Positions 10,195 to 45,552 of a stretch of DNA of 48,013 nt are shown one piece after another. The position numbers and the translations under genes are program-made. The stretch lies in assembly GCA_026397505.1 (NCBI GenBank), contig JAPLUR010000091.1:1-48013 (forward strand). The letters are read 5' to 3'. This stretch comes from Candidatus Zixiibacteriota bacterium. GTDB taxonomy: Bacteria > Zixibacteria > MSB-5A5 > GN15 > PGXB01. The notes beneath the pieces were generated by a model. It worked only from the letters and a program-made list of their open reading frames with translations. It was not told the DNA's origin and made no database searches. Numbering within the stretch: the stretch's first letter is position 1; every line of letters starts with the position of its first letter.

Positions 10195-10349
10195 TTTCCA
10201 TCTTATTACGCAGAATGTTTGAAAATTATACACCCTTTCTTAAATCGCAACAAATCAGCATCTTCGCTCAACAGGCGTCGTAAAGTTAAGCCAAAATCGC
10301 TCGATATCAAGAAGAAGAAGAGAATATTTTCCTAAAAAAGGAGCTATCG

Positions 10350-12517: not shown

Positions 12518-12548
12518 GAGCCCCGCCCTGAAGCGGGGCTCTTTTTTT
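12518..12548 (+). terminator. Intrinsic terminator
   Basis: GAGCCCCGC pairs with GCGGGGCTC around CCTGAA, followed by a T-run of at least seven. It ends the dockerin gene and abuts the stop codon of the convergent holin-like gene. Confidence 0.9.
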
Positions 12549-12883
12549 TACTTGCGGGAAATAGCGGCCGAGGCGGCGCGGCGGGCGATTTCATCATCAA
12601 TGCCGCAGATCTCCATAATCTTATCGACCGCCTCATCCAGCCTTTTCATCCAGGCGCTATCCGGATATTTGCTGATCAGATCATCGGTGACCTCATCGGC
12701 GATCAGGGCGATATATTCGGCGTAGCGGCGGCGTTTCTCGACAGCCAGATAAGGGACCAGATATTTCCGGGCAAACCAGACGACCAGAGCCATAAGAATC
12801 GCTCCGGCACCCCCGAGAAGAGCAATGATGTCGCCGGGTATTGACTGAAGAAAAGAACCGATTACCGGTATCAAGAGTATCAT
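12548..12883 (-). CDS. Holin-like small membrane protein (LLH-type)
   Basis: This 111-residue protein has one N-terminal hydrophobic segment (IIALLGGAGAILMALVVWF). A charged helical tail follows with AEYIALIADEVTDDLI and a terminal EICGIDDEIARRAASAAI. The layout resembles phage holins of the LLH superfamily. Holins open the inner membrane at lysis, but no endolysin gene is seen nearby. It is the last gene of the minus-strand phage-type cluster. Start ATG 12883 has AGGAGG close upstream. Confidence 0.6.
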   Translation of the reverse strand: MILLIPVIGSFLQSIPGDIIALLGGAGAILMALVVWFARKYLVPYLAVEKRRRYAEYIALIADEVTDDLISKYPDSAWMKRLDEAVDKIMEICGIDDEIARRAASAAISRK

Positions 12884-12904
12884 AACAGAACCTCCTTCCT
12901 ATTG

Positions 12905-14416
12905 TTACCAGGTTAAAAGCCAGCGGGAAATATTGGGGACCGTTATCCTTTCCCGCAGAATGGTACCATCAGTACGGGTGATGGTTATTTCATATTTGCC
13001 GTTGCCCGAAGTCAGATTAATGCTGGGAATCAGATCCAGATAGAAATAGCCGGTACTGTCGGAGACAGTTGATTTCTTGAAAGGCGAGATGATGCCGGCC
13101 CCGACTCGGGAGACGCCCGATGGGAGCCAGGCGGTTATATTGGCCCCTTCTTCGCGGCCGCCGCTGATATCGAACAGGAAGCCATAAACGCGGCAGATTT
13201 CGGGCAGGGCGGGCGCACCCGGATCGAAACGGTAACCATATATGGTGTCGGTGCCGGCTCCGGTGACAAGCAAAGTGTCATAACTTTCAAATATGTAGCC
13301 GGGAGCAAAGGGGATAACCAGAAAAGTATCCAGATCGAGATTGAACCCGGCATAACCATCGAAATCAGTCGATCCCGAAGCGATCAGGGCGGTCTGGCTG
13401 AGATTGCGGACGACTATTTTCACTCCGGGGATAATCTGTCCGACAGTACTATCGACCATCATCAGGCGGCAGGAATAGAGGCCGCTGCCGGAGCCGATAC
13501 CGGAGATTTCGGTGTCAAGATATTTTCCGAAGGTGCCGGTTTGGGTATGATGGTTCTGCGGCGTGTTCCAGACCCAGCGGGCCACCGAGGTCGAGTCGCC
13601 GCCGCCGCCCTGCCCTTTATAGTGCGACGAGTCCTCGAGGACGCGATTGGCGATCGTATCGGCATAGGGCAGGTTTCCGGAAATATCAATCAGCACCGAT
13701 TCGGCCACCGAGCCGACCGATCCGGAGAGATTGCCGTGGATATTTCCGCTCAAATCGTAACTTCCGATACCGTTTCCTTTGATTATCGCCCCGGTGCCAT
13801 TGCTGTTTTCGATGTAAAGAGAAGCATTAGTACTGTTCGCCCCGGAAATCAGAGCCCGCCGCAGAGTCAGGACGGAATCGGGATTAGTATAGCGAATATT
13901 CCCGACCCAGTTATCGAGATTCTGAAGGGTATCGATAACGGCCTGCAGGGAATCAATGGTCATCACCAGGGCATCATCAAATTCCCGGCTGACCAGCTGG
14001 AAATAAAAAATTCGCGGGGTTTTCAGCCAGGCGCCGGTTTGATCCGATTTGGCGCCGAGTTTGACACAGTACTGACCGATCTGGCCGTTGCCGTCGATAT
14101 CGGAAACCTGCGCCACCCAACGGTACGAGGTATCGCCGTTATCGATGCTCATCTTAATGCGGCCGGCGGCGCCGGCGATAACCTCACTGAAGACCGAATC
14201 ACCGCCCGGATTGAAGACAATCACCTTGGTGGTATCGAGGCCGCCGATATTTTTCCCCAGGCTGTCCAGATTGAAAAATCCGATGCAGAGGGAATCCTCG
14301 GGCGTGACGGCGGTGCTGGAGTTGTTGACAATGGCAAATCCTGAAGCGTGGGTAAGGGGCCAGGCAGTTAAGATTAAGATGATCAGTGCGGCATCTAGAA
14401 ATGAATGGGTTTTCAT
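12905..14416 (-). CDS. Secreted protein of the phage-type cluster, unknown function
   Basis: This 503-residue protein has a clear signal peptide (FLDAALIILILTAWPLTHASG). The body is rich in Gly, Ser, Asp and Thr, with a helical patch near residues 150-175 (DDALVMTIDSLQAVIDTLQNL) and two carboxypeptidase-regulatory-like beta domains toward the C-terminus (DGYAGFNLDLD, DSTGYFYLDL). The true start is ATG 14416, which overlaps the upstream stop in an ATGA, so translation is probably coupled. An export signal is unusual for a virion gene. It could be a fibre-like or surface protein. No family is recognised with confidence. Confidence 0.6.
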   Translation of the reverse strand: MKTHSFLDAALIILILTAWPLTHASGFAIVNNSSTAVTPEDSLCIGFFNLDSLGKNIGGLDTTKVIVFNPGGDSVFSEVIAGAAGRIKMSIDNGDTSYRWVAQVSDIDGNGQIGQYCVKLGAKSDQTGAWLKTPRIFYFQLVSREFDDALVMTIDSLQAVIDTLQNLDNWVGNIRYTNPDSVLTLRRALISGANSTNASLYIENSNGTGAIIKGNGIGSYDLSGNIHGNLSGSVGSVAESVLIDISGNLPYADTIANRVLEDSSHYKGQGGGGDSTSVARWVWNTPQNHHTQTGTFGKYLDTEISGIGSGSGLYSCRLMMVDSTVGQIIPGVKIVVRNLSQTALIASGSTDFDGYAGFNLDLDTFLVIPFAPGYIFESYDTLLVTGAGTDTIYGYRFDPGAPALPEICRVYGFLFDISGGREEGANITAWLPSGVSRVGAGIISPFKKSTVSDSTGYFYLDLIPSINLTSGNGKYEITITRTDGTILRERITVPNISRWLLTW

Positions 14417-15786
14417 TGGTGCACCTCGGGTATGGAGTAATTGCATTGATTTACGAGTTGATGTTTATGAGTCTCTTCATCAAATGAAAGCCGGGCCAAC
14501 TCGATCAGTTTTCGCCGCGGTGACACAATGGTTGATGTCCCGGCCGTGTAGGTGGCATAGATTGACCAGCGGTTATTCGCGGCAGATGATTGGCTCCAGG
14601 TAACGGGTAGCGACGTTGCATTATGAACCGAAACGACATTAGATTCGCTGTCGAATCGGGCGCGGATGGCAGAGGCGGGTGAAACATCACCAAAAGCGAC
14701 GACATAAGTGGTCCCGGCCGAAAGGGTTTGAGAAACGGCGGCGGTAGTATTCCACTGCATGCCGCTGTTGGTAACGGTTAATTGCACGCCCGACGCCAGC
14801 CGGGAATCGGGGTATCCGTTCGCATAAGAATAAGCCGCGAAACTGACATAGGCGGGGTTAGTGTAAGTCAGGCAATAGATGCTGTAAGAGGTGATAATGT
14901 CTCCGCCGGAGGCAGTATGGCGACAAGAGGATGAACCGGCAAGAGCATGGCAGACGGAAGTGGATAAATAGGCGGTGCTGGCGCCGACATTGGTATTGCC
15001 GAAAGTGGGGTCGATGGTCACCGGATAACTGGCCTGCTCCAGAAAGCGGCGGGGAATCGTAATGGTAAGAAAGGAATCGATGTTCAAGTTGCACCATACT
15101 GTCCAGCCGCGGCTGTCGTGGGCTTTGGGACGATAGATATGGAAGGCTTTTCCGGCGCCGTAATTCTCATAGGTCGTGTCATTTCGGCGAACGACAAGCC
15201 GGTCCCCCTTTTTCCCGGAATAATAGACGGCATAGGAACCGATGACGCTGTCGGGCCGCTCGACGCCCGAGGCGATTTCCGCGGCGGTCAACTCGGGTTG
15301 ATAGAGAAATTCAAATCCTTTGGTTTCGAGAGAGAAACAGACGACATCCGTATCGGGCGCGTGATCAAGAATTATTTCCCATTCCAGAGCGCCGTCTGAG
15401 CGAGTATATAACTGATGCGCAACGACCGGCGGTGTCGAGTCGATATTATTATCCCGTGCAAACCAGAGGCCGGGGCGATGATCGACCAGAAACGGCCGGG
15501 GGGCTGAGGAGATATCTCCTTTATCATTCGAGAGATGAATCAGGAGGCTGCATTCCCCTCCCCAGGCGGATAGCCGGCACTGCGGGCCAGGTCGTTCATC
15601 GGCAGACCGCCCGATTTCGACCGTCAGCGCGCGGGACGTGACCTTTGCCGACGATATTTCATCAGATATTTTCCAGACGGCATAAGTCTCGGCGCGGGCG
15701 ATGCCGAAGGCGGCCAATATAACGGTCGAGACAATTACAAACGGCAATCGGAAGAAATGCCGGAGCATTCTTAAAAGAGAGTTCAT
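14413..15786 (-). CDS. Secreted beta-rich protein of the phage-type cluster
   Basis: This 457-residue protein has an N-terminal hydrophobic segment ending in AFGIARA, consistent with a signal peptide. It is beta-rich, with an SYPVTIDPTFGN strand near residues 258-269. That phrase often precedes C-terminal repeat or fibre domains in secreted and phage proteins. The function is unknown. Both ends overlap neighbours by ATGA tetranucleotides (14413-14416 and 15783-15786), placing it firmly in one co-translated unit with the 101-aa and 503-aa genes. Confidence 0.6.
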   Translation of the reverse strand: MNSLLRMLRHFFRLPFVIVSTVILAAFGIARAETYAVWKISDEISSAKVTSRALTVEIGRSADERPGPQCRLSAWGGECSLLIHLSNDKGDISSAPRPFLVDHRPGLWFARDNNIDSTPPVVAHQLYTRSDGALEWEIILDHAPDTDVVCFSLETKGFEFLYQPELTAAEIASGVERPDSVIGSYAVYYSGKKGDRLVVRRNDTTYENYGAGKAFHIYRPKAHDSRGWTVWCNLNIDSFLTITIPRRFLEQASYPVTIDPTFGNTNVGASTAYLSTSVCHALAGSSSCRHTASGGDIITSYSIYCLTYTNPAYVSFAAYSYANGYPDSRLASGVQLTVTNSGMQWNTTAAVSQTLSAGTTYVVAFGDVSPASAIRARFDSESNVVSVHNATSLPVTWSQSSAANNRWSIYATYTAGTSTIVSPRRKLIELARLSFDEETHKHQLVNQCNYSIPEVHQ

Positions 15787-16088
15787 TGCGAAATTTCCTC
15801 CTTTGCGCTCTTGTCACGGGCGGCGGTCTTCTGCTTTCCGCGGCCGGGGCGTTTCCGACGAGCGCTGGGATCAGGCGGCCCGGCAAGTTCTTCTTCGCGC
15901 AGCTTGTTTATCATTTCCCAGAATTTTTTCTCGCCGGTCCCGGAAACGGAGAGTTTCTTTTTCAGTTCAATGACTTTCAAAAGATCACCCACTTTCGTTT
16001 TTTCAGGATTGTCCTGGAATATCTTATATAACGTATTGCGAACGTCTTCCAGAATCTGTAAATCATCGTAAGGTTTATCTTCACTCAT
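15783..16088 (-). CDS. Small charged protein of the phage-type cluster
   Basis: This 101-residue protein is mostly helical and highly charged. It has an N-terminal helix (LQILEDVRNTLYKIFQDN), a VGDLLKVIELKKKL segment and a basic tail (RRKRPGRGKQK). The size and shape recall small terminase or DNA-binding adaptor proteins, but the match is too weak to name it. No small terminase gene is otherwise seen in the cluster. It overlaps the next gene by ATGA. Confidence 0.5.
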   Translation of the reverse strand: MSEDKPYDDLQILEDVRNTLYKIFQDNPEKTKVGDLLKVIELKKKLSVSGTGEKKFWEMINKLREEELAGPPDPSARRKRPGRGKQKTAARDKSAKEEISQ

Positions 16089-16109
16089 AGATCATCACTC
16101 GGTTCAGTT

Positions 16110-16481
16110 TCAATATCCCATTTCGTAAATGAAGAAGTCGGCGTTGACGGCGGCGGAAGCGGCCGGATCGCGCGCCACACGGAAACCGGTCGCGGACTCC
16201 TCGCCGACCAGATAAACGGCATGGGAGGAACGAGGGCGGATCAGCACTTTGGGCGAAAGAATCTGTCCGGGAAGGCGGTTGCCGCGGAAATCAACCAGGT
16301 CGGCGAAAGAAATATTCTGGGCCGTGCCGCCGATAGCCGAGACACCGAACATCAGACGCCCGGTCGATTCGATTTCCTCTCCGCCCAGATAGTACAACAG
16401 GGCATTGTCGGCGGTACCCCAGACAAGGATTTCTTTTACGACCCAGAGGCGATGGCTTTTAAGATAAGTTAAAGTGCGCAT
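16110..16481 (-). CDS. Unknown protein of the phage-type cluster
   Basis: This 123-residue, beta-rich soluble protein has no recognised motif. It starts at ATG 16481 with AAGGAG upstream. Its position just after the connector-like gene suggests a virion or head-completion protein; that is context only. Confidence 0.5.
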   Translation of the reverse strand: MRTLTYLKSHRLWVVKEILVWGTADNALLYYLGGEEIESTGRLMFGVSAIGGTAQNISFADLVDFRGNRLPGQILSPKVLIRPRSSHAVYLVGEESATGFRVARDPAASAAVNADFFIYEMGY

Positions 16482-16493
16482 AATCTCCTTCCT

Positions 16494-17312
16494 TCAAGAG
16501 CGCCGGGGACGGTTCATACGGGCCGCGGGCGGTCGGAAATTTTTCACGAGTTCCTCAAAATCGCGGCGGTAGCTTTCGGCCAGAGCCAGCCAGGCGCCGG
16601 AGCGAGTGGCCTGCCCGCCGGCGGCGGATGTTTTCAATTCGTTGGCCGCGGCGATCCGGCAGACCAATGATACCGCCAGATAAGTAGCCGCGGTTTGCAA
16701 GGTCAGATCGGCGCCGAAGGTTCCGGCCGGGTCAACCGATTTCTCCATGACCGCGTTGGCCTCATCAGCCGCGGCGGCAATTATTTCATCGCCCAGGCGT
16801 CCGGAGCAAAGTTCATAGTCGATCAGAACCGTCTGCCCCGGAAGAATGGCGCCATTTGATAAGCGACGAACCAGCCCTTCGGAGTAGTTCACGCTGTAGT
16901 CGGTGCCCTCGACATAAGGAGAATAGAAATAGTACCATACCGCCACGGTCTCTCCCTCGGGAATAGTACCATCGGGCAACCGAGTAATCCTGCCGCGGGC
17001 CGAATCAAGGGCATAATCGGCGTTTTCCGCATAAACAATACCGAGGGAACTATCCGAGGCTACGGTGGCCGAGTAAGGCACTATTTTCTGATGGGTGAGC
17101 CCGACTTCCGTATCGCCCAGAGTGACAGACTCGAGAGTAGGCGCAGTATCTTTGACCGCTTTGACCGACACCGAACCGTCAATAATGGAACCGCCCGGGA
17201 GTTGCACCCAGTCCAGGCCGGAGAAGGTGGCAGGATAATCCTGCCGGAGGCCGGAAGAAGCGCCTCCCAGGTCGATATGTTTCTTGACCAGATCAGAATT
17301 GGTGTATGACAT
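16494..17312 (-). CDS. Connector-like virion protein
   Basis: In this 272-residue protein, a duplicated ~45-residue beta motif (YALDSARGRITRLPDG and YSVNYSEGLVRRLSNG) precedes a helical C-terminal region (DEIIAAAADEANAVME...LAESYRRDFEELV). The helical part resembles head-tail connector/adaptor proteins that bind the portal vertex. The beta motif resembles repeats seen in phage tail-associated proteins. Start ATG 17312 lies three bases beyond the upstream stop and is preceded by GGAG. Assignment is by shape and context. Confidence 0.5.
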   Translation of the reverse strand: MSYTNSDLVKKHIDLGGASSGLRQDYPATFSGLDWVQLPGGSIIDGSVSVKAVKDTAPTLESVTLGDTEVGLTHQKIVPYSATVASDSSLGIVYAENADYALDSARGRITRLPDGTIPEGETVAVWYYFYSPYVEGTDYSVNYSEGLVRRLSNGAILPGQTVLIDYELCSGRLGDEIIAAAADEANAVMEKSVDPAGTFGADLTLQTAATYLAVSLVCRIAAANELKTSAAGGQATRSGAWLALAESYRRDFEELVKNFRPPAARMNRPRRS

Positions 17313-17315
17313 CGC

Positions 17316-18728
17316 TTACTCCATGAGAATTATTCCCGAGGGGTTCGGGATGCAGGTAATCTGCGTTCCGACCGGCCCGGTACTGAAGGGAGAGGTAACG
17401 GCCACTTTCAGCCAGAATTTCTCGGCGCCGTTGAGATTGCTTTTCTGCCAATCGCCCGGCAGGGATGAGTAATCATCCCACAGAAGAAGCTCTTTATCGG
17501 CGGACGTGAAATGGTAAATTCCGCCGGACGGTACAAAACCGATCCATACTTCTCCGTTGAAGTACTGCCAACTGACCGTACCGCCGGCGCCGACCGCAGA
17601 AAGAATAATCTTCAGATAGTTGTACTTCCGGTCCAGACCAAGATAGAGAGCATCGCCGGAATCCTTGAAAACAACGCCGGAATCGACATGATAGATATCG
17701 CCGGCAGTCGCATCTGCGGCGGCGGTGGTCAGGTCTTTGTAATTGCCGTTGGCGGCGCGATAGCAGAACACTTTCGAAAGAGCATTCTTGACCGGATCCA
17801 GGACGGCCGGTGGCTCGAAATTATCGGTCAGGCGGCAGGAGTACATCATCTTTGATTGACCGGCACCGTACGAAGTCAGATAGACGATATAAGGAGAATT
17901 GTTGAAGTACTTGAGTTGCGGGAATGAGCCGGCTGCGGCATCGATATCGATAAGAGCGCCCCAGATATTGCCGTCAAACTCGCGAAACCTGATGCGGTTG
18001 TCATCGAAGACGACGCCAATGCGGCCATCAACGGAGCCGGCGGCGTCGAAATCGTGGTCGAGTGCCGAACCGGAGGCAAGTTCTATTTCATCATCCCAGA
18101 GAGAGGCACTGCTATGTTTCGCCCGGAGGGCGAGTTTAATGCCGCCCAGTGAATAAAAGGCGTAAAGATAGGGGTCGCTGACAACGATTTTGGAATAAGC
18201 TGAGGCGGCGCCGGCGGAAAGAGCGGTACCATAACTGGTGGGGCCGCCCGACCAGTTGACACCACCATCCGTGGAATACTTCACATTGATATAATACTGT
18301 CCGGAAGAAAGCCGGCTCCATGAAGCCCAGAGGCGACCCGAAGGTTCGATGTTGATGGAAGGATAGTAGTTATCGTCGCCGTTATAGAGAGCGTTCAATG
18401 CCCCGGCACTCCAGACACCGGAGGAAAAAGCCAGCTTTCGTACGACCAGGTCGTTATTTGAATTCAGTGTGTAAGCGACAAAAATATTCCCCTCCGTGTC
18501 CATGACGGCATCAAATGGATAATCGGCGGTATCATTGATTAGGAGTGTGGGAACGGTCCAGTAAGTGTAAGGGTAATCGGAGCAGGACAGCTTAATCTCC
18601 GTGGGAGAAGTTTGTATGAGAACCGCCATTCTTCCGGCATATGGCCCGGAGGGTACCTTGAGAAGCCTGCGATTGGGGCTGATGCCGGTTCGATACAGCG
18701 CCGAACTGTTGGTCAGATGATTCTGCAT
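17316..18728 (-). CDS. Beta-propeller (BNR/sialidase-like) protein
   Basis: This 470-residue protein's N-terminal ~300 residues form repeated propeller blades, with an Asp-box (YSTDGGVNWSG) near residue 155. The C-terminal ~130 residues form a separate beta domain (VSWQYFNGEVWIGFVP...EKFWLKV) as in phage virion surface proteins. There is no signal peptide. Catalytic sialidase residues were not identified, so a binding or receptor-recognition role is more likely. Start ATG 18728 has AAAGGAA upstream. It sits directly after the capsid gene. Confidence 0.6.
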   Translation of the reverse strand: MQNHLTNSSALYRTGISPNRRLLKVPSGPYAGRMAVLIQTSPTEIKLSCSDYPYTYWTVPTLLINDTADYPFDAVMDTEGNIFVAYTLNSNNDLVVRKLAFSSGVWSAGALNALYNGDDNYYPSINIEPSGRLWASWSRLSSGQYYINVKYSTDGGVNWSGGPTSYGTALSAGAASAYSKIVVSDPYLYAFYSLGGIKLALRAKHSSASLWDDEIELASGSALDHDFDAAGSVDGRIGVVFDDNRIRFREFDGNIWGALIDIDAAAGSFPQLKYFNNSPYIVYLTSYGAGQSKMMYSCRLTDNFEPPAVLDPVKNALSKVFCYRAANGNYKDLTTAAADATAGDIYHVDSGVVFKDSGDALYLGLDRKYNYLKIILSAVGAGGTVSWQYFNGEVWIGFVPSGGIYHFTSADKELLLWDDYSSLPGDWQKSNLNGAEKFWLKVAVTSPFSTGPVGTQITCIPNPSGIILME

Positions 18729-18743
18729 ATTAATTCCTTTAGT

Positions 18744-18771
18744 GACCGACCCGGCTCTCGCCGGGTCGGTC
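18744..18771 (-). promoter_or_regulatory. Perfect 12-bp hairpin downstream of the capsid gene
   Basis: GACCGACCCGGC pairs exactly with GCCGGGTCGGTC around TCTC, between the capsid stop and the propeller gene. No T-run follows on the minus strand, so it may be an mRNA stabiliser or processing site that sets capsid transcript level rather than a full terminator. Confidence 0.55.
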
Positions 18772-18779
18772 GATTAAAA

Positions 18780-19883
18780 TCATGCAAAAACGGTATCAAG
18801 AATCACCGAAGCCTCGCGGATTACTTTGGCATAGGCTACCGATTCGGAAATGATGGCCTCTTCGATCCGCTGCTCGATGATTTTGTCATATTCCACCATA
18901 AGGGGTTGGGTGATGACCTCCTCGACCGCAAAGCGGGTGTCGAGACCGATGATCAGATCGGTGGGAACGTCATCACAACGCACCAGCGCCGCCCCCAGCG
19001 GACTGAATAGTTCGCCCCGGTTCTGGAAACGATACCCGGCCATCGGGTCCTTGAACTCCTCAAGAGTCAAGATGGTTTTGAGCTGACCGATATGGCAGAT
19101 GATAGCGTTCATTTCGAACGGCGCAAACTCCGCCCAGAGATCGATGAGGTCGTCGTAAGTGAGCGTTCCGGAAACCGCGGTATTGATTTTCTCGGCCGGA
19201 TTGGCGTTGCCGTCACCGTTGATAAGGCAATCGATCACCAGCCCGATTTTATCGGTCTGCAGTTTGAAACCGATGTACCATAAAAGGACCCGAAACTGAG
19301 CAGTGGTGCGGTACTTGAGCGATTTGTAGCTGGCTTTAAGGCCCAGACCGTACTCCGGAACACTGATGGAATGTTTCTGTTCGGTGACCAGCAGTTGTGG
19401 AATTTCGGTTCCCTCGCCTATGGGACGAAGCGAGAAACGAGCGGTGGTACCGGTATCGATATGGAACGGGGTATAGCGGTTGTTGGCCACGGCGGTGGAA
19501 TTGGCGATAATGGCCGAAAGCTCCGGCCGCATCGACTGCCCTTTCTTGATCTCGCGCAGAATGAATTCGGGCATTAGGGCGGGGGCTTTCTGATAGAACA
19601 TATCAACGGTGGTGGCTTTGGAGCCGCCCAGCCGAATACCGGCCAGAGCCAGCTGCCTTTCAAAAGCATCGAGGGGACATCCCGGGGCGGTGGGATCGTA
19701 TTCCGAGGTATCCAAAAGCTCGCTTAAGGTCATGCCGCGCGTTTCCGCCTCGAGATAGGTTTCCTTGTCAACTTTGATTTCGGCCGTGCGGCTCAAGTCG
19801 ACCGGGCCCGAGAGTTCTCTCTGCGCCAGGTCGGAATACTCCCGCGCGACAATTGCTGATTGTGCAAATTTATTAAAATCCAC
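18780..19883 (-). CDS. HK97-fold major capsid protein
   Basis: This 367-residue protein has the layout of an HK97-fold capsid protein. It has a helical N-terminal arm (EYSDLAQRELSGP), a central GIRLGGSKATTVDMFYQ region and a C-terminal helical and strand region (EYDKIIEQRIEEAIISESVAYAKVIREASVILD) typical of the P/A-domain end of major capsid proteins. The start is GTG 19883 with AGGAGG six bases upstream. It lies between a decoration-like gene and a propeller gene, the usual place for a capsid gene. Function: shell assembly around DNA or other cargo. Confidence 0.75.
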   Translation of the reverse strand: MDFNKFAQSAIVAREYSDLAQRELSGPVDLSRTAEIKVDKETYLEAETRGMTLSELLDTSEYDPTAPGCPLDAFERQLALAGIRLGGSKATTVDMFYQKAPALMPEFILREIKKGQSMRPELSAIIANSTAVANNRYTPFHIDTGTTARFSLRPIGEGTEIPQLLVTEQKHSISVPEYGLGLKASYKSLKYRTTAQFRVLLWYIGFKLQTDKIGLVIDCLINGDGNANPAEKINTAVSGTLTYDDLIDLWAEFAPFEMNAIICHIGQLKTILTLEEFKDPMAGYRFQNRGELFSPLGAALVRCDDVPTDLIIGLDTRFAVEEVITQPLMVEYDKIIEQRIEEAIISESVAYAKVIREASVILDTVFA

Positions 19884-19895
19884 GGTCTTCCTCCT

Positions 19896-20318
19896 TTAAT
19901 TTAGAAGTATGGTGCAATCGGTGGTACTATTGACTTCCAGCACCGTGCCGCGGGCGACATTCCCGCCGGCCGGGTCATATCCGGTCAGAACCGGAGCCTG
20001 GCGCACCGTGCCGCCGGTGCCGCCGACCACACGGTTCCCGACCACCGGATAGGTGGCCGAAATGGACAGGCGGCAAATACCGCCGATCTGTACGGTGGCA
20101 ACCCGTTTGCCGTTGTCGACATCGGTGAGCGTGAGGGTGATCAATTTCCCCAGTAGGATCGAGCCGGAACCGCAGGGACCAACCGTATAGTTGCCGTTGA
20201 GGGTCGCCGCCTTTCCGATGTCGGCGTCTTTCAAATCATCGACTCCCCCGGTCTGCGAAATTTTGAACGAGGCCAGCACCGGCGCGATGGTTTCCAGATT
20301 TTGTTCTCTTACACTCAT
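19896..20318 (-). CDS. Head decoration-like protein
   Basis: This small 140-residue protein is rich in Gly, Val, Thr and Ser. Its repeated short beta segments (LITLTLTDVDNGK, ARGTVLEVNSTTDCTILLN) resemble capsid cement/decoration proteins that bind the outside of the shell. It immediately precedes the capsid gene, as such genes usually do. It starts at ATG 20318 with AAGGAG upstream. Confidence 0.5.
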   Translation of the reverse strand: MSVREQNLETIAPVLASFKISQTGGVDDLKDADIGKAATLNGNYTVGPCGSGSILLGKLITLTLTDVDNGKRVATVQIGGICRLSISATYPVVGNRVVGGTGGTVRQAPVLTGYDPAGGNVARGTVLEVNSTTDCTILLN

Positions 20319-20397
20319 ATCATCTCCTTATAGTTTATCCTTGTTTAATAAGGCCGGGCCGAAACCCGCATGGCCGCAAGGGGCATAAGCCCCGCGC

Positions 20398-20811
20398 TCA
20401 AATTTTGTGTTCTGTCCAGTCTTTCTGCTGACCGGCGGCGGACCTGAAGGTCAGGTACTTGAAACTGGCCGGGAAATTGCTCCGAAAGCGGGCTGCCACT
20501 CTACCGTACAGCCGCACCAGTTCTTTGGCTTCAATCTGTTCCAGATCGTCCGCCAAGGATGCCGCCAGGTCCATATCATCGGGATCTTTGCGGCAGGCCA
20601 GATTGGCTTTGAGCATTCCGACAATCCTGTTGCGGTAATCATCTTTAATGGTCATGAGTTCCGCTTTCATCTTCTCCAGCCGGCCGCAGACCGGCGTCAT
20701 CTCTTTGAGCAACTCCTGCAGAGCGTCAAAGTCGATCAGCTCCACGGCATCACGGCTCAGACATTCGCGGTAACTGTTTATGGTTGCTTCATCGAATTTT
20801 ACTGGATTCAC
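20398..20811 (-). CDS. Helical phage-cluster protein, unknown
   Basis: This 137-residue, predominantly helical protein (DALQELLKEMTPVCGRLEKMK...DDLEQIEAKELVRLYGRV) has no recognised motif. It starts with GTG 20811, overlapping the stop of the upstream membrane protein in GTGA, so translation is probably coupled. It could be a scaffold or chaperone by position between protease and decoration genes, but nothing in the sequence proves this. Confidence 0.5.
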   Translation of the reverse strand: MNPVKFDEATINSYRECLSRDAVELIDFDALQELLKEMTPVCGRLEKMKAELMTIKDDYRNRIVGMLKANLACRKDPDDMDLAASLADDLEQIEAKELVRLYGRVAARFRSNFPASFKYLTFRSAAGQQKDWTEHKI

Positions 20812-21113
20812 TTTCCTCTCCTCTGTTCGGTCAGGTAGAATTCTATTCGGGTCAACCGTGAGTCGATATTGTTCCTGAATTCAAAAAACTCATCCTTGCT
20901 GACTCTTCCCTCTTTAATGACAACCTCAATTCGGGCCAGTCTTTTGTCCAGCGCTTCGACCAAAACTGTTTCGGCCTTTTCGGCCAGTTGCACTTTGATA
21001 CTTCCAATGGTCGTGAAATAGGCGGCCGACATTCCCAAAAGGGCCATGACAAAATTGAAAATGGGGCGGTTGAGCAGGGCTGCCCAGCTGATTTTGCCGT
21101 TGCCGTTTTCCAT
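20808..21113 (-). CDS. Small membrane protein with coiled-coil tail
   Basis: This 101-residue protein has one hydrophobic segment near the N-terminus (FNFVMALLGMSAAYFTTI) and a charged coiled-coil tail (VEALDKRLARIEVVIKEG...RLTRIEFYL). The form resembles XhlA-like or spanin/holin accessory proteins. It overlaps the downstream gene by GTGA and follows the protease fusion gene by three bases. Confidence 0.5.
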   Translation of the reverse strand: MENGNGKISWAALLNRPIFNFVMALLGMSAAYFTTIGSIKVQLAEKAETVLVEALDKRLARIEVVIKEGRVSKDEFFEFRNNIDSRLTRIEFYLTEQRRGK

Positions 21114-21116
21114 GGG

Positions 21117-22946
21117 TCACCTGCTTTCGACCTTTTCGATATCGAGTTGGTAGAAAAGATATTTTCGCTCTCCGCGGGAAACGGCCGGGCGGAGAATGAA
21201 TCTCCCCCGGAAATATCCATCCATACTTAATACAGCGCTGTCGCCATGCCTTTCCTGCTCCAGCAGATGACCGGAACCATCGACATGATGCAAAGCGGCA
21301 CTATCGCCAATTCTTTTCTCAGCGAAAAATCGCCGCCCGGAATTCAGTAATGATGAGGAGAAGCGGGGTATAAGCAGAGTCTTCTGTTCACCATTGAGAT
21401 CATCAAATGAAAGGGACAAGTCGTCGCTGTTGGAAAATGAAACATGGTATGTTCCTTCATTTGCTGAGGGCGGCGGGATGGAACAAAGGAGCGACACATC
21501 CGATGGCGCGATGGATTGTCCCAGGCAATGGCACAGACGAGGATGCGTCAACTGAATGCGGCCGTCTTCAAATTTCAATGAGCGAGTCTCTATTTCAACC
21601 GTTTCGCCGGCAGATATTTCCCGAGCGGATACAATCGGCTCGGCAAGGGGTAGAAGTTTATCGCCATACCGGCAGGTAAGGTGATATTTGAATTGCCTGC
21701 CATGCTTCTCCCTTTCCGATATGATCGCCGGAAACAAACGATTGAAAGTAAATAGGAATCTTTCATTGGAATCGTTATCAATGATCTCCGCCCCGAAACG
21801 GGTGCCGCATTTTTCTATCGCGGCTTCAAGATTCTCGTTGTCGGTTTCTGTCACGGGAATCAGAAATCCCGGATGATCGGCAAACAACTGTTCGAGTCTT
21901 TTCCTGCGCTCAAGGAACGAACTGTAAGTGTCATCCCCACTTTCGGCGGAAAAAATATCAGATACTTTCAGATCCAGATGCCGGACAGTCGATTTTTTGT
22001 CTTGCAGGTATTTATTGAGTTCTTCAACCGACTGGCGCTCCTTCCCCCGATAACCTATAATGCGGCAGGGGAGGTGATAGTCATCCTCAGGAAACGACAG
22101 GGAATGAAGAAAATCGATGAGGCGGCGGCTTTCCATCGCCGAGCCAGGAGCATCGCGCAGTACAATCCGGCCCTTTTCCTTGCTCAGTATAATCGGTATC
22201 GATTCATAGGCGGGCATAACCAGATATTTATGACTTTGTTCGAGCAGCCGGATATCCCAGATTCTCTTCACCGTTGGTTCTTTTCGGGGCGGTGCCGGTG
22301 ATTTATCGATAGCCTCTTTACCTTTGGTGAACGCCAGATCTTTGGTGATAGCAGTGTCCGAAACCGAGCCGCGATAAACCAGCGATGTTTCGAGCACCTT
22401 CTCAATCCGGCGATAATTGAAGTAGGCCTCTTTCTTTTCGCCGCTTTCGGTATCGTAGGTGATAAAGGGGCGATGCCGGCATTCGCGAATATCCGCCCCG
22501 CAGATAGAGCATTCGGGGAAACTGAAAATGAAACTGATGGAGCATTCCTTATAGATGCCGCCATCGATATTCCGGCGCAGTTCCTCGCCCGGTTCGGAAT
22601 TTTTCAGCCAGTAGAAATATGCCTTGACCCAGTTGGCGCCGTCGCGGGCAACCGGCTCGGCATGGAAATTACGGGCAATAGGCAGACTATCTTTCCGATG
22701 GCCGATCAGAACCGGCGCATCGATAAGAAGATTTATCAATTGAGGATGCTCGTCGGCGGGAAAACAGCCGCCGTAGCTGTTAACCCGGTCAGAGACAATG
22801 TACATGGTGCGGATATTGATATCATCCGGCGCAAGCGGCTCCGGCGGCCGGATATTGCCGTTGAGCTTATCAATGAGACCGGCCGGTATCGGCGAGTCGC
22901 TTGCCAATAATGATGCTGTGATTTTTCCTATCAGGTTTTCCATCAT
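21117..22946 (-). CDS. Prohead-protease-like protein fused to DNA-ligase-like domains
   Basis: This protein has 609 residues. Residues ~45-165 look like a prohead protease: His83 in LIGHRKD, Ser136 in KECSISF, and a Cys/His knuckle (CSICGADIRECRH, 146-158). Residues ~228-475 follow the layout of an ATP-dependent DNA ligase: a domain with VRHLDLKVSDIFS and ERRKRLEQL like the ligase D.L..pl..RR..L segment, then an OB-fold-like GETVEIETRSLKFEDGR. The KxDG lysine motif is not visible. Residues ~498-600 may resemble the LigD phosphoesterase domain (LSLSFDDLNG, GYFRGRFIL). ATG 22946 or 22943 follows GGAGG. Confidence 0.55.
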   Translation of the reverse strand: MMENLIGKITASLLASDSPIPAGLIDKLNGNIRPPEPLAPDDINIRTMYIVSDRVNSYGGCFPADEHPQLINLLIDAPVLIGHRKDSLPIARNFHAEPVARDGANWVKAYFYWLKNSEPGEELRRNIDGGIYKECSISFIFSFPECSICGADIRECRHRPFITYDTESGEKKEAYFNYRRIEKVLETSLVYRGSVSDTAITKDLAFTKGKEAIDKSPAPPRKEPTVKRIWDIRLLEQSHKYLVMPAYESIPIILSKEKGRIVLRDAPGSAMESRRLIDFLHSLSFPEDDYHLPCRIIGYRGKERQSVEELNKYLQDKKSTVRHLDLKVSDIFSAESGDDTYSSFLERRKRLEQLFADHPGFLIPVTETDNENLEAAIEKCGTRFGAEIIDNDSNERFLFTFNRLFPAIISEREKHGRQFKYHLTCRYGDKLLPLAEPIVSAREISAGETVEIETRSLKFEDGRIQLTHPRLCHCLGQSIAPSDVSLLCSIPPPSANEGTYHVSFSNSDDLSLSFDDLNGEQKTLLIPRFSSSLLNSGRRFFAEKRIGDSAALHHVDGSGHLLEQERHGDSAVLSMDGYFRGRFILRPAVSRGERKYLFYQLDIEKVESR

Positions 22947-22952
22947 ACCTCC

Positions 22953-22981
22953 ATTATAAAAGAGGGGGGGGGTGGGGAAAT
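22953..22981 (-). promoter_or_regulatory. Candidate promoter with a C9 tract in the spacer
   Basis: On the minus strand TATAAT (22958-22953) lies just before the protease-ligase gene. Its spacer contains a run of nine C (G on plus, 22964-22972) plus CCCC. The -35 is weak (ATTTCC or TGATTT depending on spacing). A homopolymer here could change spacing by slippage. Confidence 0.35.
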
Positions 22982-23007
22982 CACCATCGAATCGCTACAA
23001 AAATTGC
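22979..23007 (-). repeat. 29-bp dispersed element, copy 1
   Basis: It starts AATCACCATCG on plus and ends in an AAAATTGC-like segment. The same 11-bp core recurs at 26006 and 32943, each 30-60 bases upstream of a minus-strand start codon. It may be a regulator site. Confidence 0.5.
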
Positions 23008-23187
23008 ATGGCCGGTTATGCAAAGCGGTTCATAAACGGTGACAAAAAAGGTTTGGGGCTAACCGGGACGGCCCGAAATGCATTGCCTTTCAATAGATTA
23101 CCGGCCGTGCCGGAACATTGTGCGGCGGCACGCGAGTTGCTCAGGACAAGTATGGTAAATTGGATTGGTTTTTCTAAGAGGAAAAGA

Positions 23188-23307
23188 ATGTTAGTCTATA
23201 AGGCAAAAAAAAGATTTTCATTCAAATGGATTATGGCCGGTATCATTTTTGTTGCCGTTCTTTGTATCACTTTTAATGATCTGTACGGCGCCGGTCTTCC
23301 ATTCTGA
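23188..23307 (+). CDS. Possible 39-aa single-helix membrane peptide
   Basis: ATG 23188 is preceded by AAGAGGA at good spacing. It encodes a basic start (MLVYKAKKRF) and one hydrophobic helix (WIMAGIIFVAVLCITF). A longer frame from 22972 has no ribosome-binding site. It is antisense to the phage cluster, in the 424-base gap between the protease-ligase and terminase genes, and is the only coding signal seen there. Confidence 0.3.
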   Translation: MLVYKAKKRFSFKWIMAGIIFVAVLCITFNDLYGAGLPF

Positions 23308-23334
23308 CAGTGTCTTAAGAAAAGCTCCTGCTTG

Positions 23335-23372
23335 AAAAGGTCTGTATCCGCCTGCGTGGATGCGGGCCTTTT
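23335..23372. terminator. Bidirectional terminator after the terminase gene
   Basis: AAAAGG...ATCC pairs with GGAT...CCTTTT. The minus strand ends in CCTTTT right after the terminase stop, and the plus strand ends in CCTTTTATATTTT. This separates portal-terminase from the rest of the cluster. Confidence 0.6.
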
Positions 23373-24717
23373 ATATTTTCCCCACGCGGGGGCCGATCAT
23401 GGGGGCATCCCGTTTATGCAACGGCCATAAAGCCAGCGCCAGAGCCATCAGGCTGTCGCAGGTGTTGTTATCATCCCAGCGGGCGGCACGAAGTTCTTCC
23501 TCCAGCGACCATACCCGGCCGTTATCATCAGGCAATTCCCAGCGATGATACTTGATTTTCCCCATACTGTGAAACAATTCCAGGTTGGTCAGCAATTCCG
23601 CTTTGGTCTTGGGCGTGAATATGACGGCCATCGGATTAAGGTCGGCCAGTTGCGAGACAACCACATCCCCCAGGCCCGTGCCATCGATAATCAGCCTCCC
23701 CGGATATTGCTGCTGGCGGTTGCGGATTTTCGCAATGATTATATTCCAGTCCCATTTCTTGATTCGCGTAAGAGCCTTCACGGTGCAAATGCCATTCTGA
23801 AGCTCGACCGTGATACCGACCGTGGCGGTTATTTTGCGGGCCAGGTCCCACCCGGTTATGAGTAATCTGTTTTTTGAATCGGTTCCGGTCTGATTCTCTT
23901 CCGCTTGGCCTGGCAAAAGGGCGGCATCGACATATTTTCCGGCGATTATTTCTCCGCCGGAATCGACAAACTGCCCCAAGATATTCTGCGCCACCCGTTT
24001 ATCGCTGAGATATTTTAGTTGCATGTCGAGGTACTCCGAGGAGATATGGCAATTTTCGCGTGAGTCTCCCGACTGCACGTAGGCATCTTCGGGACGTTCT
24101 TTCAATTCCAGCATCTTACGGTAGAACCAGTTGCGGCCGTTGGGAGTGGAAACCAGGTCGAGTTTTCCCTTACGGTCCGCCAACCGCATCTTGACCACAT
24201 CATTGATAACATATTCGGCGTCGTCATCAAAGGCGACCTCATCATAAAGGAAATAATCATAGTCGTTACCCAGAAGGTATTGACCCCGGTGCTGGGTGGA
24301 GCGGGCCTCAATTATCGCGCCGTTACCGAGGAAAATTCGCGGGTATGGAGTAACGGTTACTTTCTTGACCAGCCCCTCGATGCGGCAGGTGCCGTTGAGA
24401 ATGCGGAGCACCGTGTTGAAAATGATTCGGGCCTGATCAAGGGTGATACTGGCGGTCACGATATGGTAACGGCGAAAGCGATCGTAGCGAAGGCCGCGAA
24501 TACGGAAGAGGGCATGATGAATGATCTTAATGGCCGAGGCAAACGATTTTCCCCAGCGATTGCCGGTCACCAGAAGATTCTCGGCTTTGGTACTGCCGGC
24601 CAACCATCTTTCCTGCCCGGGGTGCGGCGTGATGCAGAGAAATTGCCGGGCAAAAAAGGGGATATCCCGGATGGCCTGTCGCCAGTCGTCGGAAGTGAAT
24701 ATCTTTTCTATATTAAA
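23371..24717 (-). CDS. Terminase large subunit (ATPase-nuclease), start uncertain
   Basis: This is the packaging motor. The ATPase half has a Q-motif (TPHPGQERWL), a Walker A variant (GNRWGKS), a Walker B segment (YFLYDEVAF) and STPNG coupling. The nuclease half has GWDLAR, IIDGTGLGD and a terminal DSLMALALAL, giving the acidic RNase-H-like residues. The first canonical start codon in frame is TTG 24603, which lies after the conserved Q-motif. The frame is open to 24717, just after a TGA at 24718-24720, with no ATG, GTG or TTG, and overlaps the portal stop in the -1 frame. A near-slippery TTTAATA lies at the overlap. Non-canonical initiation, frameshifting or a sequence error are all possible. 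Confidence 0.85.
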   Translation of the reverse strand, partial: FNIEKIFTSDDWRQAIRDIPFFARQFLCITPHPGQERWLAGSTKAENLLVTGNRWGKSFASAIKIIHHALFRIRGLRYDRFRRYHIVTASITLDQARIIFNTVLRILNGTCRIEGLVKKVTVTPYPRIFLGNGAIIEARSTQHRGQYLLGNDYDYFLYDEVAFDDDAEYVINDVVKMRLADRKGKLDLVSTPNGRNWFYRKMLELKERPEDAYVQSGDSRENCHISSEYLDMQLKYLSDKRVAQNILGQFVDSGGEIIAGKYVDAALLPGQAEENQTGTDSKNRLLITGWDLARKITATVGITVELQNGICTVKALTRIKKWDWNIIIAKIRNRQQQYPGRLIIDGTGLGDVVVSQLADLNPMAVIFTPKTKAELLTNLELFHSMGKIKYHRWELPDDNGRVWSLEEELRAARWDDNNTCDSLMALALALWPLHKRDAPMIGPRVGKI

Positions 24718-25949
24718 TCACCGGCCGCGCCGACCGCCGTATCTTTCGATATCAATCCGGCGGTGTACAGCTTGATGACATTATCGACTCTGGTCTTGCC
24801 GATTTCGGCCCGGTCCGACTCCAGATAAGTGAAGGTATTGTCGAAACTGAAGCGGCACCGGGCATCGATATTTCTCAGGGCCAACTCCATATTCCCCAGC
24901 CACTCGAGAAAGCGAGCCGTCTGGCGCTGGACCGAGATAACCTGACGCATCACCAGATCATATTTGAATTGCGCCCAGTTATGCGTGGTGCCATAGCTGT
25001 ACCCGAGCATGAATGGCGCCAGGTTGGTGCCGGAACAAATTTCCTCGACCATGGCGCGGTGATTTAAAAACCAGGTGTTGCCCACGCCGGTAATATTGGT
25101 CGGCCCGATATACTCGACCTTCACATTATCCCAGGTGACCGGATTATCCTCCGGCTCGCAGTCTTTGATCATCTCCACGGTTTCATCGAAATACTCGTTG
25201 ATCCGGCCGACAAAGGATTCATCGGTTTCGCCGGCCATCTTTTCGGGCGGAGTGATTTTGACATGCAAGCGATGATACCCGGCGTTGTGTGAGGTTCGCC
25301 GCATATCATCAACCAGCTGCTGTTCGATATAGGCGACAAAAGGCACAGCGCTCAGGATGGAATTACCCAGGCCCTTCTGAATATCGGTGTTCAGGCCGAA
25401 ATAATAAAAATCATCGCCCTCAATCTTGATATCTCCGGTTTCTGTTTTCAAAACCAGATAATCCCCACCTTTGTCGGAAACGCGAACAATATATGAGGGA
25501 TCAATTGGCTGGAAATAATCTATTCCGCCGCAGTCGGGACTCATTATCACAAATCCGCAGAAAGCCCCATCGGTATAAAGTGAACTGAAAAAGAACGGCA
25601 GGAATGACTCCAGTCCGCCCATTTGCCGCCCCTGGAGCGTGTACAGGCGGAGAGCGAGTTGCTCAAGATACTCCTGTGCCTCCGCCTGCTGCATTTCCGG
25701 AATATTGCCGATCAACTCGAATTGTCCCGGCGCTGATGATAGACGACTCCAGGTCCAGATGCAGGCATTCAAGAGGGGGATATTGTCTCTCAGAAACCGG
25801 TAGAGTTCGATTCGAAATTTCTGGGGACAATAATCGTTCCGGCTCCAGACCAGCCGCCGTGTCGCTGACCCGGAGCGACTGATGGCTGATTCTACCGGCA
25901 GAGAAGCCTTTTTGGCCCGGATAATTTCCGATGATTTCAATCTGTCCAT
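24708..25949 (-). CDS. Phage portal protein
   Basis: This 413-residue protein has the portal layout: a helical entry region (IPLLNACIWTWSRLSSAPG), an EYLEQLALRLY helix, a clip/stem region (GLNTDIQKGLGNSILSAVPFVAYIEQQLVDDMRR), a wing with EEICSGTNLAPFMLGYSYG and a crown-like C-terminal helix. Portals form the dodecameric DNA gate at the capsid vertex. The frame extends to 26006, but the start at ATG 25949 follows AAAGGAAAG and begins MDRLKSSEIIRAKKASL. Here the portal gene precedes the terminase gene; usual phage order is the reverse. Confidence 0.75.
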   Translation of the reverse strand: MDRLKSSEIIRAKKASLPVESAISRSGSATRRLVWSRNDYCPQKFRIELYRFLRDNIPLLNACIWTWSRLSSAPGQFELIGNIPEMQQAEAQEYLEQLALRLYTLQGRQMGGLESFLPFFFSSLYTDGAFCGFVIMSPDCGGIDYFQPIDPSYIVRVSDKGGDYLVLKTETGDIKIEGDDFYYFGLNTDIQKGLGNSILSAVPFVAYIEQQLVDDMRRTSHNAGYHRLHVKITPPEKMAGETDESFVGRINEYFDETVEMIKDCEPEDNPVTWDNVKVEYIGPTNITGVGNTWFLNHRAMVEEICSGTNLAPFMLGYSYGTTHNWAQFKYDLVMRQVISVQRQTARFLEWLGNMELALRNIDARCRFSFDNTFTYLESDRAEIGKTRVDNVIKLYTAGLISKDTAVGAAGDLI

Positions 25950-26325
25950 AATTTTACACTTTCCTTTAATGGTTATTTCTTCTCTTGAAAGTAAGATCCT
26001 GTCCAAATCACCATCGGTTTACCTACGATTTTGCTTTGGAAGCAGAAATTGGATGGAGAATCGGCGGCAGTCGTTATTGAAAATAATTCCATATAGGTGT
26101 AATCATTTCAACAAGATAGACATTTCCTGTTAAATTATTGCACGATTTTGCAGATTATTCGTTCGCATCCCTTTTTATAAACTTTATTGAAGAACTTATT
26201 TATTGTCGGAGAATGACTTACGCTCAATATTCTTATTTTGCGGAAGGGTACTATAATTGCTTGCATTATTAATGAGTAATTATATTTAGAATATTAATGA
26301 GACTTTTATAGAGCGAGGATTGACT
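25950..26325. other. AT-rich intergenic region at the phage-cluster boundary
   Basis: This divergent gap separates the portal gene (minus) and the PEP-CTERM gene (plus). It holds the dispersed element at 26006-26034 and an AT-rich stretch 26130-26310 without a clear TTGACA-type promoter. No gene or attachment-site repeat was recognised. Confidence 0.6.
26006..26034 (-). repeat. 29-bp dispersed element, copy 2
   Basis: It has the same AATCACCATCG core as at 22979 and 32943, ending GATTTTGC. It lies 56 bases upstream of the portal start. Confidence 0.5.
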
Positions 26326-27078
26326 ATGAAAAAAGGTTTGATAATGGTGGCTTTCTTGAGCCTCTTTATGTTTGCAGGAAATTCCGGTGCATTTGAATAT
26401 AAGCTCGGGTATGATTTTGGGAATCCATTCGATGAAAATAATAATTATAGTCCGGTCTATTATCCTTATCACATTCAAAATTATCCCTCCCCGGGGTATC
26501 TGGGCGAGGGAGGCGAGAAATTCGACCTTGAGGGGATCCATTTCGGCATTTCGGGAGATATGGTTCATGTCGCCTTAGTTAATTCTTTTGGCTTGGCTGC
26601 GACTTCCTCCGCATGGCATCAGACCTACAACCTCGGCGATATATTTTTCGGTTTTGACGGCAGCAGCACCAGCTACGCCATCGATCCATTTACCCGGGAG
26701 CTTTATGCTGTCAACAGTTATGATGGTATCTACAATCTTCCCGGTTCCTATTATGGCAATTCTTATGTGAGAACCACGGTGGGAGCTTACAATGTGACTT
26801 CCGGAACGAATCTCGGGACTGTCAATCATGAATACACCATGTGGCAGGGTTTGGAGACAAACCCGATGCAGGGCAGCGGCGACACCTGGGTCATGGAATT
26901 CTCTTTTAACCGCAGTCTGATTGATATGGCCGGCATGAGAACAATATCTTTCCACAATACCCTTGGTTGCGGAAATGATCTGATGAATAAGACATTTACG
27001 GTTGTGCCGGAGCCGGGCACACTTCTCCTGTTTGGTCTGGGTTTGCTTGGTTCGATGGCAATTCGCAAAAAAGATTGA
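26326..27078 (+). CDS. PEP-CTERM sorted exported protein
   Basis: This 250-residue protein has a signal peptide (MKKGLIMVAFLSLFMF...SGA) and a C-terminal PEP-CTERM signal: VPEPGT, a hydrophobic helix (LLLFGLGLLGSMAI) and a basic end (RKKD). Such proteins are cut and moved to the surface by exosortases, usually in EPS-producing bacteria. The body is Gly/Tyr/Asn-rich and unassigned. Start ATG 26326 follows GAGCGAGGA. The exosortase in this window is type H, which recognises a different signal, so this protein needs another exosortase elsewhere. Confidence 0.85.
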   Translation: MKKGLIMVAFLSLFMFAGNSGAFEYKLGYDFGNPFDENNNYSPVYYPYHIQNYPSPGYLGEGGEKFDLEGIHFGISGDMVHVALVNSFGLAATSSAWHQTYNLGDIFFGFDGSSTSYAIDPFTRELYAVNSYDGIYNLPGSYYGNSYVRTTVGAYNVTSGTNLGTVNHEYTMWQGLETNPMQGSGDTWVMEFSFNRSLIDMAGMRTISFHNTLGCGNDLMNKTFTVVPEPGTLLLFGLGLLGSMAIRKKD

Positions 27079-45489: not shown

Positions 45490-45552
45490 TATGATATGGT
45501 AACAACCGCAGGCAGCAATGCCTGCACTCTTCAAGTGAAGGAGCCTCATAAA

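Follow-up and report, generated by a model that had tools for sequence, protein, structure and literature searches.

RcGTA, the gene transfer agent (GTA) of Rhodobacter (Rhodogtaviriformidae), is an endogenised and vertically inherited cluster of head and packaging genes that carries a long siphovirus-type tail. The cluster described here is likewise an endogenised, vertically inherited set of head and packaging genes with an adaptor of similar fold, but it has no long tail. It consists of 14 consecutive minus-strand genes, running from position 26006 down to 12548 of a 48,013-nucleotide contig (JAPLUR010000091.1, assembly GCA_026397505.1) of a Candidatus Zixiibacteriota bacterium; this whole stretch is henceforth referred to as the window. 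Among published systems, FpGTA of Faecalibacterium (Borodovich et al. 2026, PMC12946183) comes closest, with a small operon of 10.5 kb compared to 13.5 kb here. Compared by description, both clusters contain terminase, portal and capsid genes, are devoid of replication genes, are podovirus-like, and lie outside the Alphaproteobacteria, which together with a few other groups have supplied most characterised GTAs (PMC12946183). In the same text, the fibre, baseplate and lysis genes of FpGTA are placed in a second operon of 5.5 kb, whereas none were found for the window cluster, and FpGTA particles with about 9 kb of packaged DNA are demonstrated, whereas the window cluster is known from genes alone.

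The cluster is probably a domesticated head, packaging and neck module of a tailed phage that has become fixed in the Zixibacteria chromosome and is GTA-like. The evidence consists of the phage derivation of the genes, the intact terminase residues, the adaptor fold, the single copy, conserved order and fixed place of the cluster, its co-diversification with the host, purifying selection and secondary loss.

Cluster composition and distribution in Zixibacteria

The 14 genes form a tailed-phage head and packaging module (Table 1). In a profile scan of the cluster genes, PHROG families named the portal, the large terminase, the major head protein and a head/virion structural protein, while the terminase alone exceeded the Pfam cut-off and almost nothing else was returned. 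The first-pass annotation of the window had placed portal, terminase, protease-type, decoration-like, capsid and connector-like genes on one strand, an assignment supported by the PHROG matches and an adaptor model, and indirectly for the protease-type gene. It had also reported no integrase, replication or endolysin gene in the cluster, and this agrees with the PHROG and Pfam scans, in which no integrase, replication or lysis/endolysin family rose above noise for any cluster gene. Across the whole genome of origin (G000; 147 contigs, rated 100% complete), the tail sheath family PF04984 was absent, the same search being positive in 3/14 control genomes, as was the tape-measure family PF10145 (PhageMin_Tail), other tape-measure families lying outside the search. 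No tRNA genes were found within the window, and the cluster edges share no repeat longer than 13 bp and no perfect repeat longer than 11 bp. Integrase genes, repeats at the edges, and absence from close relatives had been named in advance as evidence against domestication; no integrase and no edge repeat was found, and the cluster is present in close relatives.

The survey covered 132 Zixibacteria genomes, all of one class, from 19 families and including 78 of high quality. The capsid gene was detected in 111 of these (73/78 high-quality genomes, 18/19 families) and was single-copy throughout, except for genes in pieces in G044, G109 and G125. Re-searching the 21 capsid-negative genomes yielded a full-length terminase in 11 (two weak partial matches excluded) and a strong propeller match in five (two weak matches excluded), with G072 the one additional genome. 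At least one strong particle gene (capsid, terminase or propeller) was present in 123/132 genomes and 76/78 high-quality genomes. In the high-quality genome G028, the expected neighbours enclose no more than the beginning of the 609-aa gene, which runs into stops, and an intact 111-aa gene; since these remnants persist at the same site, the absence is attributed to secondary loss. None of the three searched genes was found in G064, also of high quality, in which the 3.9 kb beside the dockerin gene contains no cluster gene. In three single-contig genomes (G044, G051 and G076), the capsid gene is broken up or absent; because the fragments end at stretches of 100 N, these breaks are attributed to joined contigs rather than to biology. 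Joins of exactly 100 N were also observed in the single-contig Zixibacteria genomes of L010, L172, L173, L177, L178, L192 and L193, and apparent rearrangements in such genomes are untrustworthy.

Full-length capsid matches share 76–80% identity within the family, 64–72% within the order and 55–66% within the class. Scanning named genomes with the capsid gave 24 close loci (L049–L072), of which 20 are from Zixiibacteriota/Zixibacteria. No published account of a GTA- or capsid-type cluster in Zixibacteria was found in a literature search that included the spellings Zixiibacteriota and Zixibacteriota, subscription papers and most preprints being outside its reach.

Vertical inheritance, selection and chromosomal place

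Trees of 37 genomes were built with FastTree from six joined particle proteins (2081 columns) and from rpoB (1246 columns). Four of 41 genomes were left out (G005, G013 and G018, with rpoB in pieces, and G060, with no rpoB), and G019 was kept with a partial rpoB. The two trees have 20/34 splits in common, against no more than three in 1000 label shuffles; 18/22 strong particle splits recur in the rpoB tree, 14/19 strong rpoB splits recur in the particle tree, and all four multi-genome families as well as the order are clades in both. Particle and rpoB distances gave a Mantel r of 0.888 (maximum of 0.435 in 999 shuffles). For seven within-genus pairs, dN/dS was 0.013–0.109 for the capsid, 0.056–0.113 for the portal and 0.075–0.106 for the terminase, values being given only where dS could be estimated and some pairs being saturated. 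The exported proteins evolve faster, with dN/dS of the 513-aa protein reaching 0.42. The cluster is inherited vertically, co-diversifies with its host and is under purifying selection. Together with the single-copy capsid, the rpoB congruence and the selection bear out the first-pass preference for a domesticated or GTA-like element over an intact prophage; the satellite that it had also allowed for finds no support, given the vertical inheritance and the fixed place.

Gene presence was counted as loci containing the gene over loci spanning its expected place, using one locus per genome at family, order and class level. All loci of the three groups were used, but a gene was scored only where the locus spans that place or where the gene was found, and the broken or short clusters L172–L178 and L185 were kept outside the groups. 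Loci L049–L055 duplicate the contigs of seven genomes also represented by L009, L010, L013, L014 and L016–L018, and further named loci repeat other genomes, so that the two locus sets overlap. Relatives keep the order, strand and spacing of the genes. One flank is marked by a dockerin gene (Table 1) and the other by a TPR gene, found in 4/5 family, 12/16 order and 0/8 class loci. Within the order the cluster occupies one fixed chromosomal place, so that a proposed check for the same cluster at a fixed site in relatives gave a positive result for both gene order and flanks. The flanks differ at class level and the cluster has therefore moved at least once. Its core holds together at that distance, as indicated by the class-level counts for the head, protease-type, propeller, adaptor and 513-aa genes in Table 1, and the 137-aa and 457-aa genes are not recognisable there.

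Head and packaging proteins

The terminase profile matches ATPase and nuclease structures of P74-26-type TerL (E 1e-8 to 9e-8). Its Walker A motif, GNRWGKS, occurs in 42/42 sequences, and D121-E122, D253, D307 and D383 are invariant in the same 42, a set restricted to X-free sequences longer than 300 aa, with duplicates from both locus sets among them. The three single aspartates are taken by us to be the nuclease residues, alongside the Walker A motif and the DE pair; read from this alignment, every terminase catalytic residue is intact. The listed open reading frame starts at 24603, and the frame homologous to the N-terminus of other members reaches 24717 without an ATG, GTG or TTG.

H83 and S136 are invariant in the 609-aa protein, and its His and Ser positions coincide with those of HK97 gp4, positions which we assume to be catalytic in prohead proteases. 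Direct alignment to HK97 gp4 by hhalign was weak (probability 0.3%, E 0.21), and the homologue encoded in L105, part of a viral contig of 40 kb, hits families of proteases with E values between 2e-7 and 2e-3. These matches point weakly and indirectly to a prohead-protease-type protein. Over residues of about 215–400, five of eight solved-structure rows are DNA ligases (E 0.018–0.22), and DNA_ligase_A_M matched 4/14 members of the family (best E 0.005), the ligase hints overall spanning E 0.005–0.4. The position that, from the ligase catalytic-lysine motif, would presumably hold the catalytic lysine is a lysine in 1/14 members, and the C-terminal half may be a degenerate ATP-dependent DNA-ligase-like domain. 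The 137-aa helical protein is possibly a scaffold, judging from its position.

No solved chain was matched by sequence with the profiles of the capsid, portal (both at E ≤ 1), head protein or 513-aa protein. The capsid lineage is, by sequence profile, unrelated to solved capsids, among which we count that of RcGTA.

Separately, the space that divides the terminase gene from the protease-type gene (22947–23370) is an insertion spot, with several kb of unrelated genes at that point in L011, L038 and L042.

Probable neck proteins

In the model of the 272-aa protein, a helix at the N-terminus is accompanied by beta domains and by three further, long helices. Neck and adaptor proteins top its structure list, the best match being T4 gp13 (Z 9.8, 90 aligned, rmsd 2.7). 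Portal-tail, tail and vertex proteins of GP4, A4, SU10, KHP30, Moo19, HRP29 and crAss001, all of which we take to be short-tailed phages, follow within the first 24 rows at Z 6.6–8.9, and the RcGTA neck chain 6te8 matches at Z 6.7 (84 aligned, rmsd 3.4), where a Z near or under 8 can reflect a common arrangement; some other rows match the beta part only. Because the rows belong to one functional class and the gene is clustered with a portal and a capsid, a head-tail adaptor resembling those of short-tailed phages is the natural reading of the model.

The fold closest to the predicted propeller is that of Photorhabdus lectins (Z 27.0, 285 aligned, rmsd 2.5), which we take to be seven-bladed and on which the likeness in blades is based. 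The podophage nozzle (P22 gp10 or T7 gp12 type) is a beta-propeller fold located below the adaptor. No named podophage nozzle was found among the best 50 solved entries, where lectins and other propellers fill the list, and a comparison with viral structures returned one row named P22 Gp10 (rank 11, E 5.6e-8, TM 0.37). The 470-aa protein is a candidate nozzle or receptor-binding protein, and the two models together make a short-tail or neck apparatus likely. The earlier description of the module as being without a tail goes too far: no long tail was found, but the adaptor and the lectin-like propeller point to a short tail or neck.

Phage relatives

In L105, members of the window's capsid, portal and protease-type families stand beside a tail sheath, a tape measure and an anti-repressor, and the head module is therefore considered to derive from true tailed phages. 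The capsid of this gut phage contig and those of the Oscillospiraceae loci L073–L093 belong to the same family as that of the window, at 32–35% identity. Among 2.9 million viral contigs, and among phage records, no free phage exceeded 35% capsid identity, save for L094 (IMGVR_UViG_3300027896_005586). This contig is filed as a virus and shows cluster genes only, namely capsid (60% identity), portal, terminase, protease-type and propeller; by its gene content it is a piece of this bacterial cluster.

The phage terminases nearest to that of the window are those of the Thermus phages P74-26, P23-45 and G20c and their relatives (22–30% identity). These three phages have long tails and genomes above 70 kb. 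The window portal had no match in the phage collection.

Beyond Zixibacteria, the 21 loci L073–L093 (Oscillospiraceae, Clostridiales and other bacteria) carry the related capsid in a conserved gene cluster whose flanks are common within subgroups. In the family of G132, a related capsid was found in 55/150 genomes, with one copy each and one of them in two pieces. This is possibly a second domesticated cluster, and perhaps lies behind the GTA-like packaging of gut Oscillospiraceae reported in PMC12946183.

Exported proteins, small genes and neighbouring genes

Table 1 Features of the particle cluster and its flanks, with loci containing each gene over loci spanning its place.
Feature	Position	Strand	Evidence and remarks	Family	Order	Class
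Dockerin protein	10350..12488	+	Flank marking the fixed place; opposite strand to cluster in 6/7 family and 18/19 order loci
111-aa protein	12548..12883	-	N-terminal membrane helix, soluble helical tail	5/7	12/19	6/13
513-aa protein with signal peptide	12905..14446	-	C-terminal carboxypeptidase-regulatory-like, putative beta-sandwich domains conserved in alignment	7/7	21/21	13/14
457-aa protein with signal peptide	14413..15786	-	Fast evolving	7/8	5/21	0/14
101-aa protein	15783..16088	-		8/8	17/21	7/15
123-aa protein	16110..16481	-		9/9	21/21	14/15
Putative head-tail adaptor, 272 aa	16494..17312	-	Predicted structure with inserted beta domains, pLDDT 85.1			15/15
Predicted seven-bladed beta-propeller, lectin-like, 470 aa	17316..18728	-	Predicted structure, pLDDT 93.9; inserted domain at about 310-460	11/11	22/22	15/15
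Major capsid protein, 367 aa	18780..19883	-	phrog_3922, E 2e-58
Head/decoration-type protein, 140 aa	19896..20318	-	phrog_4588, E 1e-7	11/11	22/22	16/16
137-aa helical protein	20398..20811	-		11/11	17/21	0/16
101-aa protein	20808..21113	-	One membrane helix, then coiled coil (sequence); phrog_462, weak	8/9	18/21	12/16
Protease-type protein, 609 aa	21117..22946	-	phrog_16951; N-terminal prohead-protease-like domain; zinc-knuckle-like C-C-C-H			16/16
Terminase large subunit	23371..24717	-	phrog_2, E 3e-28			8/15
Portal protein	24708..26006	-	phrog_3753, E 6e-19; start ATG 25949 or TTG 26006	5/7	19/20	8/15
PEP-CTERM surface protein	26320..27078	+	Flank kept beside cluster; PF07589; tblastn matches in 15 loci, some duplicates of one genome

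The signal peptides that the first-pass annotation had noted in two cluster genes (12905–14446 and 14413–15786) were found again at both N-termini, by eye and with a crude rule. That rule is passed by 32/47 starts of the 513-aa family; it misses evident cases (e.g. L019), and the 47 starts include duplicates and ill-chosen starts. PF13620 matched the 513-aa protein below threshold, and a beta-sandwich fold of its C-terminal domains is proposed from this weak match. An exported protein of this kind is unusual for a virion gene and is the least explained part of the cluster. By appearance, the 111-aa protein is weakly holin-like, and a single member of its family matched the holin family phrog_1350 at E 0.19. 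In some members at class level, the 123-aa gene and the adaptor gene stand in swapped order.

Several protein-sorting genes lie near the cluster: the PEP-CTERM neighbour, two proteins with the same C-terminal anchor, and a membrane protein that was judged by eye to be a possible exosortase (43243–44133, 45496–46434 and 46529–47194). The anchor of the two proteins is IPTL-like. On the other side, lipA (lipoyl synthase; 9350–10233) is apparently split in two frames, through a frameshift or a sequence error; its second piece has no family match and was assigned by eye. In the gene at 33285–34397, an IS200-like Y1 transposase domain is joined to one resembling Mycothiol-S-transferase, for which the match falls below cut-off.

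Discussion

The distribution, trees and selection that argue for domestication apply equally to a domesticated particle that is loaded with host DNA and yet delivers no genes, being either a killer of the PBSX type or a shell for DNA storage or protection, and a particle of that kind would also agree with no complete tail being visible. PBSX kills with a contractile tail, and the tail sheath gene is absent from the genome of origin; on the same ground a tailocin or other contractile particle was rejected. PBSX of Bacillus subtilis, described in PMC12946183 as a DNA-packaging, non-injecting particle and called a tailocin there, is nevertheless a precedent for such packaging. Since the adaptor and the lectin-like propeller suggest attachment and a path for DNA exit, a non-delivering particle is considered unlikely, though it is the most credible of the alternatives. 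The HK97 fold is common to encapsulins, and no cluster genes are better conserved than those of the capsid and the head protein, as a DNA-free protein shell (an encapsulin-type compartment or a delivery shell) would lead one to expect; such a shell would, however, have no use for a conserved portal or for a terminase whose catalytic residues do not vary among 42 sequences, and it is very improbable.

Homology of the head genes to a true phage, L105, could be taken to indicate a prophage, or a decayed one, that is merely common. Against this stand the single copy in 111/132 genomes, the fixed place in the order, the congruent trees, the low dN/dS of the genes measured and the lack of an integrase and edge repeats, and the prophage explanation is refuted unless all trees have misled us, leaving it a slimmer chance still than the empty shell. 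An intact or temperate prophage in particular was rejected, as the cluster has no integrase, replication or lysis genes, its place is fixed and its distribution is not patchy. A capsid-forming satellite (cfPICI-like) that moves with helper phages would also fit a cluster of head and packaging genes that lacks a long tail. Elements of the cfPICI type are defined by an integrase and mobility, whereas this cluster has no integrase, is inherited vertically and keeps to one place; the satellite is the least probable explanation of all.

Several observations weigh against the preferred explanation, that of a domesticated, GTA-like module. Neither particles nor packaged DNA nor transfer have so far been seen. 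No small terminase and no endolysin was identified in the cluster. At class level the terminase and portal are each found in only 8/15 loci, in part because inserts, which separate them from the protease-type gene in several loci, push them beyond the 20 kb examined. Five of 19 strong rpoB splits are missing from the particle tree, and one strong conflict between the trees concerns G036. DprA and ComEC are encoded in the genome of origin, but each also occurs in 10/14 control genomes and, being this common, they say little for DNA uptake.

Six features of GTAs are listed in PMC9662315: proteins derived from tailed phages, a fully endogenised genome, vertical inheritance with co-diversification, packaging of mostly random host DNA, incomplete packaging of the own genome owing to a small head, and delivery of the DNA to other cells. 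Known GTAs also evolve more slowly than free phages. For the window cluster, derivation of the proteins from tailed phages, full endogenisation as judged by genome sequence, and co-diversification with the host (37 genomes against rpoB) were found. It is called GTA-like rather than a GTA because these are three of the six features and the other three need particles.

Under the domesticated-module explanation, the capsid would be matured by proteolysis and filled by the terminase with DNA of the host, not with the element's own genome, because the cluster has no replication or integration genes. Closure of the neck by the adaptor, and perhaps by the lectin-like propeller, would give a tailless or short-tailed particle that would bind a glycan on recipient cells. 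Release would occur by lysis, and recipients would take up and recombine the DNA. A function at the cell envelope, be it release, tethering or reception, would fall to the two exported proteins.

A bolder proposal, which is doubtful at present, is that an ancient form of gene transfer is a core trait of the whole phylum, carried out by a very short-tailed particle with a lectin-like attachment protein and co-inherited with its own exported envelope protein (12905–14446) as a dedicated factor for release, tethering or reception, so that production and uptake would be joined in one operon. To our knowledge, the receptor and uptake genes of known GTAs are scattered rather than gathered in one operon.

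A phylum-wide GTA-like variant from a separate phage lineage is new. The case of L094 is a warning that pieces of such clusters get filed as viruses, and a cluster this deep in the phylum offers a set of genomes for comparing loss, selection and host ecology. The gene evidence suggests that Zixibacteria make their own gene-carrying particles. If so, the domestication of phage particles would be older and more independent than thought, having drawn on another phage lineage, and would account for the exchange of genes in this uncultured phylum.

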